From Methanospirillum hungatei JF-1 (GTDB lineage Archaea; Halobacteriota; Methanomicrobia; Methanomicrobiales; Methanospirillaceae): a stretch of 64,000 nt of DNA. Within the stretch, counting starts at the first letter, position 1, and each line of letters begins with the position of its first letter. The notes under the pieces are model-generated. The model did no database searches. It worked only from the letters and a program-made list of their open reading frames with translations, and was not told the DNA's origin. Shown in pieces: positions 3,340 to 47,541 of the stretch. Both the position numbers and the translations under genes were made by a program. The DNA is taken from contig NC_007796.1 in NCBI RefSeq assembly GCF_000013445.1, positions 2,578,936 through 2,642,935 of the forward strand, in the 5' to 3' direction.

Positions 3340-4891
3340 CCCGGCGGTTACGATCATCCTTGTTCTGGTGTATGTTGCAATCACCTTGGTGCTTGGATAC
3401 CTTGGATACAAAAAAACCATTCATGCAGAAGATTATCTGCTGGCCGGACGGGACAGTCATCCGGTGATCATCGCCCTCTCATATGGTGCGACGTTCATCT
3501 CAACATCAGCAATCGTGGGGTTTGGCGGGGTTGCAGCAAACCTTGGTATGGGACTTATCTGGCTGACGGTTTTTAATATAGGGGTAGGGATTCTTCTGGC
3601 ATTCGTGCTCTTTGGAAAGAAGACACGGGAGAAGGGAGCAGAAACCGGGGCGATTACATTCCCTGACCTTATGGGCAAGATCTTCAATACCCCAAAACTC
3701 CAGTTCATCAGTGGTATTATCATCCTGCTGGGGATGCCGCTGTATACCGCTGCGGTTCTGATAGGAGGTGCACGGTTTCTTGAGACGACCTTAAGCATCT
3801 CCTACACCACCGCCCTGATTGGATTTGCAGTCATCGTTGCTCTCTATGTCATCTATGGCGGGCTTATTGCAGTTATGTACACCGATGCGTTCCAGGGAGC
3901 GATCATGCTCATTGGGATGACAATTCTTCTGGTGCTGACCTACATATATGTCGGTGGCGTGACTGCAGGCCATAAGGCACTCGCTGCCATGTCTGACCTG
4001 GTTCCCGAGACACTTGCCGGGCAGGGAATGACGGGGTGGGCATCAATGCCTGAACTAGGCTCACCCATCTGGTTCACCCTGATAACAACGCTTGTCCTTG
4101 GTGTTGGTATCGGTGTCCTGGCCCAGCCCCAGCTCGTCGTCAGGTTCATGACCGCACGGGAGAACAGGGCATTAAACCGGGCAGTACTGGTCGGGGGTCC
4201 ATTCATCCTGATGATGACCGGAGTGGCATTTACGGTTGGTGCATTGACAAATGTCTATTTTTACCAGCACATGGGAAAGATTGCCATTGATGCAGCAGGG
4301 GGGAACGTAGACTCGGTCATTCCCCTGTATATCAATACCGCCATGCCAGACCTGTTTGTGATAATCTTTATGCTGACCCTGCTTTCAGCGGCAATGTCCA
4401 CCCTATCGTCACTCTATCACACCATGGGGACCGCTCTTGTCTGTGACCTCTGGGGCAGAGGACAGAAATGTGCCATGTCACTTCGGGCAAACCAGATTGG
4501 ATGTATTGTGATGATGATCCTGAGTGTTGTTCTGGCTCTTGCCATGCCGGCGAGCATTATTGCCCGGGCAACTGCGATGTTCATGGGCCTGTGTGCCTCG
4601 GCATTTCTCCCGGCATTTGCAGTAGGGGTGTATTCCAAACGACCTTCACGGGCGGGGGCGATGGCCAGTATGATATCAGGAGCGTTCATCTGGTTCTTTT
4701 ACACGGTTTTTATCCATACCGCCGAAGCAAAGGCCCTTGGGATCTCCCAGTTCCTGACCGGATCAGTAACGATACTGGGTGCACCCTGGACCGTTATCGA
4801 TCCCCTGGTTATTGCACTCCCAATATCACTCATCGTCATGGTTTCATTTCAGGTTCGTGAACGTAGCGTGGGAGTGAAAAGCCAGGTATAA
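3329..4891 (+). CDS. Sodium:solute symporter (SSS family)
   Basis: A 520-residue inner-membrane carrier with about 13 hydrophobic segments and the LeuT-like SSS signature, including YLLAGRDSHP after the first helix, the small-residue-rich SYGATFISTSAIVGFGG in the first core helix, and YGGLIAVMYTDAFQGAIM. Members use the Na+ gradient to import small organic solutes; the substrate (organic acid, amino acid or vitamin) cannot be read from sequence. AAAGGAGGA lies 8 bp before ATG 3329. Co-translated with the overlapping 43-aa accessory subunit. A terminator-like hairpin follows the stop. Confidence 0.9.
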   Translation: MAVDPAVTIILVLVYVAITLVLGYLGYKKTIHAEDYLLAGRDSHPVIIALSYGATFISTSAIVGFGGVAANLGMGLIWLTVFNIGVGILLAFVLFGKKTREKGAETGAITFPDLMGKIFNTPKLQFISGIIILLGMPLYTAAVLIGGARFLETTLSISYTTALIGFAVIVALYVIYGGLIAVMYTDAFQGAIMLIGMTILLVLTYIYVGGVTAGHKALAAMSDLVPETLAGQGMTGWASMPELGSPIWFTLITTLVLGVGIGVLAQPQLVVRFMTARENRALNRAVLVGGPFILMMTGVAFTVGALTNVYFYQHMGKIAIDAAGGNVDSVIPLYINTAMPDLFVIIFMLTLLSAAMSTLSSLYHTMGTALVCDLWGRGQKCAMSLRANQIGCIVMMILSVVLALAMPASIIARATAMFMGLCASAFLPAFAVGVYSKRPSRAGAMASMISGAFIWFFYTVFIHTAEAKALGISQFLTGSVTILGAPWTVIDPLVIALPISLIVMVSFQVRERSVGVKSQV

Positions 4892-4935: not shown

Positions 4936-5048
4936 CCTTCCAGAAAACGATGATATTCAGAGAGAAAGAATGCTCATTTTACAAATCAGGAAAAAGATTT
5001 CATCTTCGAAAAATAATACTCCGTCACCGGTACTCAGGAGGTTATAAG

Positions 5049-5606
5049 ATGAACTTCAGACCAGGGCTTTCCCTGCTTATTATCCTGTCATTTCTTATGA
5101 TTCCCGTGTTTGGGGAAGACCTTACGAAAATATACGGGAGCATCCCAAAGAACGGAATAAACCAGGTCACTCTTGACAACTCAGCAAATGATAAGGAAGC
5201 AGTTGTTGTGTTTAAAGAGATGAACTGGCCGATACCATTTGCAGTATACCTGGCTCCTCACCAGACCGGAGTATTGAAACTGCCCTCTGAGTCATACCAG
5301 GTGTATTATACACTCGGTCGAGGCTGGAATGTTGCTGAAAAGCGGTTCCATAGCGAACCGGAATACTACATGATGACGGGTGTATTTAACCCCGCCGAAA
5401 CTGGTCTCATCCATGAAGAAAAACTTCGCCCGGCAAGGGTTGTTGATGATACCTGGGATCCTGATGCATATGTCCCAAGCACATATGGAGAGAAGATAGA
5501 TTATGCTGAATGGAAATGGGCTGAGAGCACCATCCCGCTCTATCAAAATACAGGTTCTCCCGATACACGGGTACCTGTCGATGAGAGTGATTTCCCTCTT
5601 TCCTAA
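5049..5606 (+). CDS. Exported protein of unknown function
   Basis: The reading frame opens at 4950, but AGGAGG at 5036-5041 points to ATG 5049. The product then begins with a clean signal peptide (MNFRPGLSLL followed by a hydrophobic stretch, cleavage after VFG). The mature 160 residues contain no membrane helix and no recognised domain. The sequence is rich in aromatic and acidic residues, suggesting a small beta-rich extracytoplasmic protein. Monocistronic, between the symporter and a decayed HepT gene. Function unknown. Confidence 0.7.
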   Translation: MNFRPGLSLLIILSFLMIPVFGEDLTKIYGSIPKNGINQVTLDNSANDKEAVVVFKEMNWPIPFAVYLAPHQTGVLKLPSESYQVYYTLGRGWNVAEKRFHSEPEYYMMTGVFNPAETGLIHEEKLRPARVVDDTWDPDAYVPSTYGEKIDYAEWKWAESTIPLYQNTGSPDTRVPVDESDFPLS

Positions 5607-41574: not shown

Positions 41575-42393
41575 TTGATCGACTCATTCGAGGGTAAGGT
41601 TGCCATTGTGACCGGTGGTACATCCGGCATCGGCTATGCGGTATCAGAAGAGTTGTTGAAACGCGGTGCAACGGTCTGGGTGATCGGGAGCAGGCAGGAG
41701 AGCGTGGACAAGGCACAAGCGTCGCTTTCTGCGTTTCATCAAGCACGGTTTGCGGCAGTGGACGTCCGGGACAATACCGCTGTACAGAAGATGGTTACCG
41801 ACTGCGTCCGGGAGGACGGCCGGCTCGACTATCTCTTCAATAACGCTGGTATCAGCCAGAAGAACCCGTACGAGGCGAGCACCCTTGAGGACTGGAAGGA
41901 GATGATTGACATCAACCTCTGGGGAGTCATCTATGGGATCAATGCCGCCCTTCCCGTGATGAAAGCACAAAAGTCCGGCCATATCGTCAACACCTCGTCG
42001 GTTGCAGCTCTCTATGGCACGCCATACCAGGCGCTGTACGTGGCAACCAAGAGTGCGGTGCTCGGCCTTACCGACTGCCTGTATTACGAGTACCTGCCGG
42101 AGAACATCCTCTTTTCAGTCGTCTGCCCAGGCGATGTTGCAACGCCCATCTTCAAAGGCCGGGTACCTGAGGGCGCAATAACGGCTGAAGAAGCTGCCCG
42201 GATTATCCTTGACGGCGTGGAGAAGAAGGAACGGATGATCGTCTTCCCTGAATCTATGAGGGATCTGGTGGAGAAATGCAAGGACCCGGTCTTCCGTGAC
42301 TTGGCACATAAAAAGACCGAGGAGGACAGCCGTGCTTTCTTTGCGTCGCCGGAATACCAGGAGTTTCTGGCGCGACAGAAGAAACGGGGGTAA
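41575..42393 (+). CDS. Short-chain dehydrogenase/reductase (SDR), copy 1
   Basis: 272 aa Rossmann-fold NAD(P)-dependent oxidoreductase: TGGTSGIG cofactor loop, NNAG, catalytic Ser in NTSS and YVATK (Tyr/Lys). TTG 41575 follows GAGGTGAT, the only in-frame start near the conserved N-terminus. Its first 40 residues are identical to those of copy 2. It lies 12 bp after the decarboxylase-like gene. Confidence 0.88.
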   Translation: MIDSFEGKVAIVTGGTSGIGYAVSEELLKRGATVWVIGSRQESVDKAQASLSAFHQARFAAVDVRDNTAVQKMVTDCVREDGRLDYLFNNAGISQKNPYEASTLEDWKEMIDINLWGVIYGINAALPVMKAQKSGHIVNTSSVAALYGTPYQALYVATKSAVLGLTDCLYYEYLPENILFSVVCPGDVATPIFKGRVPEGAITAEEAARIILDGVEKKERMIVFPESMRDLVEKCKDPVFRDLAHKKTEEDSRAFFASPEYQEFLARQKKRG

Positions 42394-42455
42394 CAGCCTT
42401 CTTGAGGAGGAGCGGGATTGCCCTGTGCATCCCCGTGGAATGAGGAGGTATGACA

Positions 42456-43280
42456 ATGAGTGATGTATTTGAGGGAAAGGTAGCAATCGTGACCGGGGGC
42501 ACATCCGGCATCGGTTATGCAGTATCAGAAGAGTTGCTGAAACGCGGTGCAACGGTCTGGGTGATCGGCAGCCGGCAGGAGAGCGTGGATAAAGCACGAA
42601 AATCCTTTGCCGCCTATAAAAATACGCGGTTCCTGGCAGTGGACGTGACTGTTGCCGACCAGGTGAAAGGAATGATTGATGCGTGTGTTGAAAAAGATGG
42701 CCGGCTCGATTATCTCTTCAACAATGCCGGTATCGGCATGACGCACCCGAGCCAGTACCTGACGCTTGAGATGTGGCAGCAGGCCATCGATCTCAACCTC
42801 TGGGGTGTCGTCTATGGCGTCCATTTTGCCCTGCCGGTCATGCTTGCACAAAAGAGCGGACATATCGTGAACACGTCATCCATTGCCGGAATTGTCCCGC
42901 TGCCTTCCCAGGCTGCGTACTGTGCGACCAAGCATGCTGTCACAGCCCTGACCGAGTCGTTGCGGTACGAGTTCTTCGAGGAGGGCATTGCATTTACGAC
43001 CATCTGCCCGTCCAATGTCGCAACAGCGATCTTCGGCAAAGCTGACATACCCCAGGATGCGATCCCGGCTGAAGAGGCGGCGCGGATCATCCTTGAAGGG
43101 GTAGAGAAGAAGGAAGGGATCGTCATCTTCCCGGCGTATGTAAAGAAAATGTACGAGCGCGCCCTGACTGACCAGGCGTTTAAGGAGAAGTTCTTACTCG
43201 AATATGCCCGGCGCCGCAATGACGGGTGGAGACGGGGAGTCCCCTATCTCGGCGCCCCGATGGACCTGATGGAAATGTAA
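42456..43280 (+). CDS. Short-chain dehydrogenase/reductase (SDR), copy 2
   Basis: 274 aa paralogue of the preceding gene with the same TGGTSGIG, NNAG, NTSS and YCATK motifs. ATG 42456 is favoured over ATG 42450 because GAGGAGG at 42442-42448 gives proper spacing. The N-terminal thirds of the two genes are almost identical in DNA, while the C-terminal substrate regions differ, pointing to recent duplication or gene conversion followed by substrate divergence. Confidence 0.88.
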   Translation: MSDVFEGKVAIVTGGTSGIGYAVSEELLKRGATVWVIGSRQESVDKARKSFAAYKNTRFLAVDVTVADQVKGMIDACVEKDGRLDYLFNNAGIGMTHPSQYLTLEMWQQAIDLNLWGVVYGVHFALPVMLAQKSGHIVNTSSIAGIVPLPSQAAYCATKHAVTALTESLRYEFFEEGIAFTTICPSNVATAIFGKADIPQDAIPAEEAARIILEGVEKKEGIVIFPAYVKKMYERALTDQAFKEKFLLEYARRRNDGWRRGVPYLGAPMDLMEM

Positions 43281-43325: not shown

Positions 43326-43890
43326 CCTGCCGGACGAAGTAAACGTGTAACGGATCTGGCAATTACGTTCTGGTACGTGACGGTTTTTGAGACTGGTAGC
43401 CGTCCATCCACGACAAGTGTCGATTCGGAGATGGACGAGGAGAGTAATCGCTTCGTCACCGACCTCCTCCTCTGCTGATGGAGACTGCCGTCCGGAAAAA
43501 TGACCCTTGTTATTGAATACCCAACCCTTTTACCTTTCTGCATGCTCATCCACCCGGGTTCGCCCCCTGATTCTACCAATTTTAAAGAGATCATGGATGA
43601 GTTGAGGAGGAGACTCATCCGGAATGGAGATTTCCTGATTTTTGACAAGCGCTATTTCTCCTCGAAGAATGACCAGATAAGGGTTCCCTAAATACAGGAT
43701 CGTGCTGCCCATATTCCCGCGAAATAACTATAAAACCGGGAAAGCGTTCAGTAAAATGTGCCATCCGCTCACTGTGTATTCCCGACACGATGGAAAGAGG
43801 GTGAAGGCGGAATATGAGAATCTAGTCTCCACGTTGAAACGTGAGTTGAACAGGTGGATTGACTATCTTGATATTCGTTTATTCATCCGA
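43326..43890 (+). pseudogene. Decayed IS4-like DDE transposase
   Basis: One frame reads from about 43326 through an internal stop near 43480 into TLVIEYPTLLPFCMLIHPGSPPDS and FLIFDKRYFSSKND, the DDE-domain landmarks of IS4/IS5-type transposases. After a frameshift near 43690 it continues as KYRIVLPIFPRNNYKTGKAF and LKRELNRWIDYL. The 3' end is cut by the IS1634-type repeat at 43885. At least two disabling changes; not functional. Confidence 0.7.
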
Positions 43891-44181
43891 CACTCGGTAG
43901 CAACGAGTGTTACGAAATTAATTTTTAGTACAAACATTTAAATCTGAGAACGTTGTATACTCTTCTTGAATACTGTCCATCGTTGCTGATTCAAATGCAA
44001 CCATCGCTCACTTGGGCATAGTATCAGGGATAATAGACAAACTTGGAATTTGTGAATACATTGATCGGCTCATTCCCAAAAAGCGTAGCCATATTGTCAC
44101 TCATGGCGAGGCAGTGAAAGCATTACTTCTCAATTGCCTGGGTTTTATTGAACGGCGCCTTTACCTGATGCCAGAATATTT
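43885..44181 (+). repeat. Inverted repeat, left copy
   Basis: Nearly identical to the reverse complement of 47108-47404. Begins CATCCGACACTCGG with an internal hairpin ACACTCG/CGAGTGT (43890-43910) and runs through the first 69 codons of an IS1634-type transposase. Few mismatches are seen, including the start codon (CTG here, ATG in the right copy). Confidence 0.85.
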
Positions 44182-44862: not shown

Positions 44863-45270
44863 ATGACCACTATTCAGATACCCAATGAAAAACCCTGGAT
44901 AATAAAAGACCAGCGGATCTCATTCCAAGGACCAGGAAATCTGATAAGAGGAGCAGAAACCTGCATGTATATGTCACTGTCGGATTCTGTTATGCATCTA
45001 TGCACATCTATGCACGAGCTATGCACACAAACGTGCATAACAAAGAAGGTCATGGTTCAGATGTTTTCTAAAAATATTGATGTATGTAAAATTTCAATGC
45101 TGCTATGCACTTTTCGGAAGGTGCAAGTACACCTCACTGGAACCATAACGAAGCCCTCTTGTACGATCATGAAAAATGTGCATAGACCCCTACTAAGTTA
45201 TGTAATTTTAGCTATTTTAGAATTTATAGAGATTATTAAGGTTTTTTGCTATGCACACCAGCGTGCATAA
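44863..45270 (+). CDS. Open frame running into the TATGCAC array (135 aa)
   Basis: ATG 44863 has a good ribosome site (AAAGGAG, 44851-44857). The first 33 residues (MTTIQIPNEKPWIIKDQ, then RISFQGPGNLIRGAET) look protein-like. After that the frame is simply translation of the symmetric repeat array (LCTSMHELCTQ). The likely reading is a truncated gene whose 3' part was replaced by the array. Confidence 0.25.
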   Translation: MTTIQIPNEKPWIIKDQRISFQGPGNLIRGAETCMYMSLSDSVMHLCTSMHELCTQTCITKKVMVQMFSKNIDVCKISMLLCTFRKVQVHLTGTITKPSCTIMKNVHRPLLSYVILAILEFIEIIKVFCYAHQRA

Positions 45271-45298
45271 CCGGTGCATAGCTGTGCATAGCATGCAT
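44991..45298. repeat. Mirror-symmetric array of TATGCAC/GTGCATA boxes
   Basis: Ten exact 7-mers: forward at 44999, 45009, 45020, 45104 and 45250; reverse at 45033, 45178, 45263, 45274 and 45284; each array is edged by ATGCAT. The order F F F R - F - R - F R R R is symmetric about 45144.5: four pairs mirror exactly and the fifth within 1 bp. Spacers in each outer block are 3, 4 and 6 bp but differ in sequence, so box positions, not spacers, are conserved. The 10-11 bp steps place the boxes on one helix face. Probably binding sites (iteron- or operator-like). Confidence 0.85.
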
Positions 45299-45537
45299 AC
45301 ACCCCTTACATACTGTGAAAGATACTAAAACCATATTGATACAGAATAGTCCCTACAGAGATCTATGTGAAATGCGGAAAACAGTATCTCCGAATGAACG
45401 AGTAAGTCGAGAAAGTATAGGCTTAAAATATGTTTCATGAAGAGGTTTTGGTGTTTGATTACTATCGACAATTGTCTGATATTTGTCGACCTACACTCCC
45501 ATGTATCTGCTCCATGAAAGTGGCTACCATTCCTATT

Positions 45538-46587
45538 TCATGGCTCGTGATATCGAGCATTTGCCAATTCATAGATTTCAAGTAGAAATTGTTTGAACGG
45601 AACTTCCTCCTTATAAAGCGCAGTCCACAAAAGTTGCAAAACTTGTTCATATGCAAAAAAGAAGTATCGAATTTTCATATCTTTAGATTTTGAAGAGATT
45701 CTCGCTTCATCTTGAACCCTAAATCCTGTTTCTATTCTCCATCGTCGTTTGTATGATGGAATAATCGTATCAAGGTTTATTTCCTCCTGATTGGTAGCAA
45801 ATGCCCAATCAAAAGATTTTTGGGACTTTTTATCAAATATTTGCTTTAAAAGGGCAAGGGTTGTCTCCCCCTTGATGACTGTCATATCTTTGTTTAATTT
45901 AAAGCAGTAGGTTATTTTCTTTTTTTCTGATTCTTTTAACGATTCAAGTTCTTTTTTGATTTTAGAGTCTTTTTTAACGAATATTAGGTATGGAAGTGAT
46001 GCATGGGTAAGAGTTAACATGAGATCCTTACTGTAAAAACCCCGGTTATAGATGCTCAAAATCACTGAGTTAATCAATGGTTTAATTATCGTAAAACACC
46101 ATGCAACCATTTGTGCCATGCAATGGCCTTGCACTACGGGAATCGAGATTAGGGGGATTTTTTCAGGTATATCACTATTTATTATTGAACAAGAAAGAAA
46201 CTTGAATTTGCCTTTAACTGCATGTTCTCCAGTATGACCATGAATCCATAAAGTGTTTATTTCGCCATAAAAATCTTCATCCGTGTAGTCAAAAGCTAAA
46301 ACCACATCTTTATCTTTTAAACCAAACCGAGAACCTACTGTTTGAACCGTATCACGATAGGCCCAAACAATGTCTGATGTTTTCACCTTTTTTATCGCTA
46401 AATGAATACTATCTGCTCTATTGCCAACAGTTTCAAGATATGAATTTGCTACCGCTGCTTTAAGCAAATCACGATTGTACTGAAATCCGGACAATCCTTT
46501 TGCAGGGTACTCAATATTTAGTGCACGATCAACAAAAATATCCAATGTTTTTAGAGTTCTAAATAACCTACTCTGATTCAGAGTCAT
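45538..46587 (-). CDS. DDE transposase (IS4-like, ISH3 type)
   Basis: 349 aa, intact. Catalytic region: AFDYTDEDFYGE (first Asp), ILSIYNRGFYSKDLM (second Asp replaced by Asn in this spelling, the usual D-R-G-F-Y motif reads NRGFY), and YKRRWRIETGFRVQDE with the Glu of the YREK-like motif. Family placement is by resemblance. Its ATG overlaps the stop of a small DUF2080-type gene. AT-rich relative to the chromosome. The NRGFY variant could impair catalysis. Confidence 0.8.
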   Translation of the reverse strand: MTLNQSRLFRTLKTLDIFVDRALNIEYPAKGLSGFQYNRDLLKAAVANSYLETVGNRADSIHLAIKKVKTSDIVWAYRDTVQTVGSRFGLKDKDVVLAFDYTDEDFYGEINTLWIHGHTGEHAVKGKFKFLSCSIINSDIPEKIPLISIPVVQGHCMAQMVAWCFTIIKPLINSVILSIYNRGFYSKDLMLTLTHASLPYLIFVKKDSKIKKELESLKESEKKKITYCFKLNKDMTVIKGETTLALLKQIFDKKSQKSFDWAFATNQEEINLDTIIPSYKRRWRIETGFRVQDEARISSKSKDMKIRYFFFAYEQVLQLLWTALYKEEVPFKQFLLEIYELANARYHEP

Positions 46588-47100: not shown

Positions 47101-47316
47101 TCATAGGAAATATTCTGGCATCAGGTAAAGGCGCCGTTCAATAAAACCCAGGCAATTGAGAAGTAATGCTTTCACTGCCTCGCCATGAGTGACAATATGA
47201 CTACGCTTTTTGGGAATGAGCCGATCGATATATTCACAAATTCCAAGTTTGTCTATTATCCCTGATACTATGCCCAAGTGAGCGATGGTTACATTTGAAT
47301 CAGCAACGATGGACAT
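47101..47316 (-). pseudogene. IS1634-type transposase, N-terminal remnant (right copy)
   Basis: Retains ATG (47316) and 70 codons matching the left copy (ADSNVTIAHLGIVSGIIDK start), then stops at 47101 two codons past the shared region (EYFL). Truncated; lacks the catalytic domain. Confidence 0.75.
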
Positions 47317-47404
47317 TATTCAAGAAGAGTATACAACGTTCTCAGATTTAAATGTTTGTACTAAAAATTAATTTCGTAACACTCGTTGCTGCCGAGTGTC
47401 GGAT
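47108..47404 (-). repeat. Inverted repeat, right copy
   Basis: Reverse complement of the left copy with few differences; outer edge CGAGTGTCGGATG. The terminal hairpin ACACTCG/CGAGTGT is at 47379-47399. Hairpin-ended tips of this kind may be the true transposase recognition ends. Confidence 0.85.
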
Positions 47405-47541
47405 GTAAATTTTATACTCTCTTATTTGTCTCGTTTAACTCCAACAACATAAAAGTCATTGAGATTATCGAAATCAGCGGGAGTATAAAAATTTGTATTT
47501 TGATGGGGGGAACTTTCAATTCTGCAATAATAAAAAAAAGA

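Follow-up and report, generated by a model that had tools for sequence, protein, structure and literature searches.

A mirror-ordered array of twelve boxes in Methanospirillum hungatei JF-1, a probable orphan copy of an iteron-type origin of arCOG07809 mobile elements

Integrated elements of the arCOG07809 (Mpal_2033) type have been described as putative satellite viruses (PMC4158269). Their replication protein, Rep, is composed of a primase, a helicase, an HTH domain and a Zn finger, a description matched by the genes that host the in-gene arrays reported below, and an upstream small ORF fits the HJR-type nuclease reported for these elements, an inference made without a Pfam match (PMC4158269). 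That paper contains no repeat array or origin, and no mention of either for arCOG07809 was found in the open-licence literature; what we add is the array with its layout, and the observation that it co-varies with the HTH domain. Partly similar organizations are known from other replicons. PICIs and SaPIs, which encode a primase and a replication initiator that are sometimes fused, resemble the present array in that two sets of iterons flank A+T-rich DNA beside the pri-rep gene; unlike it, they are bacterial, their origin lies 3' of the gene and not inside it, and no fixed 12-box layout was reported for them (PMC6092414). In the lambda ori the initiator-binding iterons are located within the initiator's own gene, O, next to an A+T-rich stretch, but there are four iterons of 18 bp and the O protein is small (299 aa), without helicase or primase (PMC6022878). 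The alpha protein of satellite phage P4 joins a primase, a helicase and a winged helix that binds the origin repeats (described in PMC4234260), although its primase is of the Toprim type. ORF904 of pRN1 is an archaeal Rep with prim-pol, helicase and winged helix whose cis site lies by the gene, and a bidirectional model with two hexamers has been proposed for it, but the site is a stem-loop of ~100 nt, explicitly not iterons (PMC4234260); the Rep families of pRN1 and arCOG07809 are only distantly related (PMC4158269). The array had been assigned to no known class in a first-pass annotation made from the sequence alone, a view that the PICI/SaPI and P4 origins and the lambda ori inside gene O do not support. 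As regards what is expected of an iteron origin, the window copy presents the ordered multi-repeat array, whereas location in or beside the cognate initiator gene is true of the family and not of the window copy or its twin (see below); the window copy also differs from the arCOG07809 elements in that their genes are absent.

The window, i.e., the whole stretch of 64,000 nucleotides analysed here, belongs to a genome assembled in one contig of 3,544,738 bases. The ten exact TATGCAC/GTGCATA boxes of the first-pass annotation were all verified at their coordinates and strands (Table 1). TATGCAC occurred 26 times in the window as compared with 6.1 expected, a number reached by 0 of 100 shuffles, and ten of these 26 sites were packed into 292 bp where ~0.03 would be expected from the window rate (Poisson ~1e-22). 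Four pairs of boxes (44999/45284, 45009/45274, 45020/45263 and 45033/45250) had their common centre at 45144.5, and the inner pair (45104/45178) was centred on 45144.0, half a base off. The palindromic order about 45144.5 was thus confirmed, but the count was not: two variant boxes, TATGCAT and ATGCATA, had been missed at the outermost positions, where they are also found in other array copies, and the full array has 12 boxes, six forward and six reverse, in the order F F F F R - F - R - F R R R R. The arms (44998-45047 and 45242-45291) were 78% complementary over 50 bp and the mismatches fell in the spacers, in agreement with the earlier remark that box positions are kept while spacer bases differ. 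The proposed helical phasing was only partial: steps of 10 and 11 bp are present, but so are steps of 8 and 13 bp. The inner spacers were A+T-rich on both sides. The order and spacing of the boxes are far from chance: the same layout was encountered in many other elements whose box words are unrelated. Elsewhere in the window, two adjacent and similar short-chain dehydrogenase-like genes (41575-42393 and 42450-43280) seem to be a tandem duplication.

Table 1 Features of the array and its surroundings. Coordinates are positions in the window unless another locus is named.
Feature	Position	Strand	Remarks
Unit common to the window and L011	44825..45377		Whole unit; L011 4956-5512 (85% identity); non-coding in both
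Complete mirror-ordered array	44991..45299		Six forward and six reverse boxes, 12 in all; dyad near 45144.5
Outer forward box F1, TATGCAT (variant)	44991..44997	+	Also in other copies
Box F2, TATGCAC	44999..45005	+	
Box F3, TATGCAC	45009..45015	+	
Box F4, TATGCAC	45020..45026	+	
Box R5, TATGCAC	45033..45039	-	
Left inner spacer	45040..45103		70% A+T; candidate duplex-unwinding stretch (inference)
Inner box F6, TATGCAC	45104..45110	+	
Inner box R7, TATGCAC	45178..45184	-	
Right inner spacer	45185..45249		74% A+T; candidate duplex-unwinding stretch (inference)
Box F8, TATGCAC	45250..45256	+	
Box R9, TATGCAC	45263..45269	-	
Box R10, TATGCAC	45274..45280	-	
Box R11, TATGCAC	45284..45290	-	
Outer reverse box R12, ATGCATA on + (variant)	45293..45299	-	Also in other copies
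DDE transposase gene of an IS	45538..46587	-	Conserved stretch abuts the shared unit; bystander, outside the array
Left arm of an inverted DUF4277 (IS) fragment pair enclosing the region	43884..44181		Right arm 47108-47405
Orthologous TTNCAGCA arrays	L271 5411-5744; L269 8978-9312; L270 4815-5148		An Orc1/Cdc6 gene (L271 7162-8517) lies some 1.4 kb away

Two other copies of the array were found in the same genome. One of them, at 2980094-2980456 (locus L011), was 85-89% identical to that of the window and shares with it a unit of 553 bp that reaches 165 bp further left than the array arms. The other one, at 2126940-2127250, was diverged; arrays of this kind were also present in two further genomes of the genus and are located within an open frame of 1058-1074 codons. 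A search for the pattern TATGCAC-n3-TATGCAC-n4-TATGCAC recovered the three arrays of JF-1 and those of two relatives, and elsewhere among 231 genomes of the order gave one weak single match only. The search of other Methanospirillum genomes suggested by the first-pass annotation was thus positive, with the ordered array present in two relatives and in many related elements. No Rep gene was detected in the 64-kb window or in the 10 kb around the L011 twin, and the flanks shared by both copies had no similarity to Rep beyond 21 residues. The window copy is then an orphan array and not an arCOG07809 element; the notion of a platform inside a mobile region is supported, with the correction that the rep gene of a mobile element, in which a homologous array does lie, is missing here. 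Without Rep, the window copy cannot now be an autonomous origin. An archaeal chromosomal origin (ORB, Orc1/Cdc6) was also considered and rejected, since no Cdc6 match was found in the window or L011. In L011 the left flank of the array is a direct duplication (4602-4733 and 4965-5093, 72% identity).

The gene that hosts the diverged array in JF-1 (G000:C1:2126518-2129691) encodes a replication protein of ~1060 aa, and it is the only Rep with the same box word among those whose arrays were read in this genome. The protein fits the published description of arCOG07809 as primase, helicase, HTH and Zn finger (PMC4158269); both the primase assignment and the arCOG07809 membership rest on that description because Pfam gave no match. 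Searches of Pfam, PHROGs, NCBIfam and PDB sequences left Rep and its neighbours unnamed apart from weak AAA matches; in the JF-1 element that adjoins the in-gene array, Rep is accompanied by small proteins lacking any database match. Of the proteins tested beside this Rep none matched a known family, and no match to a ParA/SegA-like ATPase, the partner expected of a partition site, was obtained. Rep carries a P-loop (GESGKGKS) and CxxC pairs. Its AlphaFold model showed a confident winged helix (helices 707-719, 726-733 and 737-745; strands 763-771 and 777-785), followed by residues 805-936, encoded by the array stretch, which were predicted to be disordered; the in-gene array is thus located in the DNA for a linker of predicted disorder. 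When the winged-helix region was modelled on its own (mean pLDDT 80), the result matched winged-helix structures. The fold search with the full-length protein gave only AAA+ MCM-like similarity with a low TM-score, and the helicase part resembled MCM AAA+ chains, also with low TM-score and low model confidence. The Rep family was present in 11 of 12 genomes of the genus, with up to 24 matches per genome, and in 156 of 232 genomes (32 of 40 genera) of the order Methanomicrobiales, but no full-length Rep appeared in plasmid and phage records. The helicase region resembles that of Methanothermobacter plasmid Reps, e.g., with 22% identity in pMTBMA4. Downstream of rep, this plasmid has A-tracts phased every 10 bp (L265 3250-3560), likely a curved origin region, and no array of the 12-box type. 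The scan of IMG/VR for the array pattern gave only single chance-like matches. Three viral IMG/VR contigs with a related Rep N-terminus (L161, L164 and L160) have smaller repeat arrays in the equivalent linker; those of L161 and L164 present forward boxes on the left and reverse boxes on the right and do not match the window layout.

We inspected the linkers of 115 Rep genes for their most repeated 8-mer (either strand, one mismatch) as compared with synonymous-codon shuffles. In 60 of the 115 a repeated word was enriched (z>3, at least 7 boxes), whereas the helicase segments used as controls mostly were not; around 45% of the linkers, some long ones included, had no clear array by this test. 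The family uses ~24 distinct box words, among them CTATGCAC, CTGTGCAG, AATGTGCA, TTAGCGGA, GGCGGAAA, GGCGGGAA, TCGCGGAA, TTACAGCA, TTCCAGCA, TTGCTGCA and CCTTCAGC. Across words, and across many genera, the observed layout was constant, with boxes F 0, F 8-9, F 18-19, F 29-30, R 39-45, F 114-128, R 186-207 and F 258-281, followed by R boxes up to about 302-334. The window layout was matched at p<0.05 by 31 of 50 arrays with unrelated words (tested against shuffled spacings and orientations); as the arrays are kin by descent, the p-value combined over these tests is inflated. Mirror symmetry to the exact base pair was best in the TATGCAC, ATGTGCA and GGCGGAA groups, the others being symmetric only approximately. 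Since a strict mirror test (+/-1 bp) was significant in some box groups only, our claim is one of layout conservation and not of universal exact symmetry. A clean count of six plus six boxes was likewise limited to some groups.

It is the DNA and not the peptide that is conserved, since a single array presents its word in all three reading frames and in both orientations. Between L012 and L013, 104 of 104 box bases were identical as compared with 189 of 216 spacer bases. Relatives in other Methanomicrobiales share the layout, with the array placed either in the corresponding linker or 450-830 bp downstream of rep; the latter was the case for several short-linker Reps, in which the array follows the stop codon at that distance, mostly without a long open frame through it. 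The array has thus moved between coding and non-coding positions with its layout kept. Several non-coding TTNCAGCA arrays (L235, L244, L248, L251-L253 and L257) appear to have one more conserved stretch in common. It lies within the array, consists of a GAGAGA...CGCGT...CTCTCTC palindrome with a CACACACA run after it, and may serve as an unwinding element.

Comparison of Rep sequences with their box words suggested which part of the protein would recognize the array. In 55 arrays, identity within residues 721-750 and 741-770 predicted box similarity with partial r of 0.44 and 0.40 (corrected for overall Rep identity), whereas other non-adjacent residue windows gave at most 0.27; the permutation maximum exceeded 0.435 in 0 of 2000 cases. 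Residues 721-770 comprise the recognition helix and the wing of the winged helix. Independent evidence comes from L017, whose Rep is 95-100% identical to that of L012 or L013 across almost all of residues 1-736 and in 958-1045. The L017 residues that are unlike all three TATGCAC-type Reps lie within 737-941, barring one residue and the cut-off C-terminus; they include changes in the recognition helix (Q737R, V740I, L744V and S745A), in the wing and in the array, and the L017 box is CTGTGCAG, as opposed to the TATGCAC group. L017 thus appears to be a natural recombinant in which recognition helix and array were exchanged together. In the absence of binding data, it is our strongest evidence, still sequence evidence, that Rep would read the boxes.

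The two orphan copies also bear on how the array is maintained. Between the window and its twin, 83 of 84 box bases but only 194 of 225 array spacer bases were identical (p=5e-4), which suggests constraint after the loss of coding. Rep-less TTNCAGCA arrays were found in at least five genomes besides this one; in three, all from the same genus, they occupy one orthologous chromosomal place (Table 1), with 59 of 64 box bases but 186 of 271 spacer bases conserved (p=6e-5); these could possibly represent a captured origin beside the chromosomal origin.

We consider it likely that the window holds an orphan: a free-standing version of the iteron-type origin at which an arCOG07809 mobile element would start its replication. 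The observed homology to the array in a mobile-element rep gene and the recurrence of the layout with other words point to a selected protein-binding platform, as the first-pass annotation had proposed, and most likely to the first of the options that it named (iteron-type origin, partition site or large operator); binding and replication are inferred. Several other explanations were weighed. It is scarcely credible that a Cys/His-rich protein motif (MHLCTPMHELC...) gave rise to the boxes as a by-product: boxes in rep genes do encode MH, LC and VH residues, but the reading of one word in three frames and on both strands, the GGSG, LQHV and AEGH encoded in other groups, a word enrichment beyond that of synonymous shuffles and the existence of arrays in non-coding DNA refute it for the family. 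A recent inverted duplication, MITE-like terminal inverted repeats or a cruciform-forming hairpin would agree with the complementarity of the arms and with a single strand that folds better than its shuffles (z -3.3), and we nevertheless regard this as very improbable, given that the complementarity is concentrated in the boxes, that the layout is kept with unrelated words and that the unequal arm spacings of other groups would not pair along the arms; a search of Rfam gave no match. Terminal inverted repeats of a MITE or transposon, which should bound the copies, are rejected because the shared unit extends past the arms. The first-pass annotation would have been refuted by arms that are a simple recent inverted duplication in relatives or by absence of the array from related elements, and neither was the case.

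Plasmid iteron arrays often serve several roles, such as partition, handcuffing and operator. The array might then be a Rep-binding site with another main job (partition or centromere, copy-number control by handcuffing, or large operator), the true origin being elsewhere; a symmetric multi-site array would suit a centromere too, and origin activity is only inferred here. We hold this to be rather improbable, as no ParA/SegA-like ATPase match accompanies the primase-helicase Rep and the unmatched small proteins of the JF-1 element, the domain that tracks the boxes lies inside the replication initiator itself, and the initiator's own site is the origin in PICIs and pRN1 (PMC6092414, PMC4234260). 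For the orphan copy in particular, a decaying relic of a rep gene in which the array has outlasted the rest is conceivable though unlikely. The left arm in the window can still be translated as MHLCTSMHELC, resembling the Rep linker; a shift of one base (254 vs 253 bp) takes the arms out of coding register, stops interrupt them, and there is IS damage around. Against mere decay, the boxes were almost invariant between the orphan copies while the spacers fell to 86% identity, and the flanks common to both lack Rep similarity beyond the residues mentioned above. We give little credence to a decoy kept by the host, by which chromosomal arrays would titrate Rep and thereby hold in check the elements that arrive or already reside in the cell. 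Ectopic copies of the lambda ori do arrest lambda proliferation (PMC4488673), the two orphan copies share their box word with one resident Rep, boxes are conserved in the non-coding state here, and Rep-less arrays recur in other genomes, with conserved boxes in the one orthologous set; yet there is no sign of host benefit, a satellite origin parasitising Rep in trans predicts the same pattern, and the IS fragments that close in the window copy are what one would expect of debris. Any role assigned to the orphan copy is an inference: it may be a relic, a decoy, or a satellite origin that the JF-1 Rep with the same box word replicates in trans.

According to the orphan-origin explanation that we prefer, the initiator of the complete elements is one protein with an archaeo-eukaryotic primase, an AAA+ helicase, a winged helix and a zinc ribbon, and the array lies either in the part of the gene that encodes the linker of predicted disorder or a short way downstream. 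One box of 7-8 bp would be read by the winged helix (recognition helix ~737-745, wing 763-785). With six boxes per orientation in two opposed halves around A+T-rich spacers, the array would bring initiator protomers together as a pair of opposed assemblies, possibly two head-to-head hexamers. These would open the DNA and prime bidirectional replication; physical binding, origin activity and hexamer loading are all inferred. More tentatively, as a possibility that we do not favour, a family of satellite-like archaeal elements might load two opposed hexamers at a two-fold symmetric 12-box origin of fixed layout, in which word and recognition helix are swapped as a cassette, giving many mutually exclusive replicons per genome, with Rep-less copies kept by hosts or parasitic satellites as decoys or trans-replicated origins.

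If the orphan-origin explanation is right, a widespread and uncharacterised family of archaeal mobile elements would have a putative cis-acting origin, with a built-in specificity code in which ~24 distinct box words are paired with sequenced recognition helices. Compatible replicons or vectors for use in methanogens could come out of this, and one would have to ask whether chromosomal copies without a Rep act as decoys or satellites or, where they lie near orc1/cdc6 in one genus, as captured origins.
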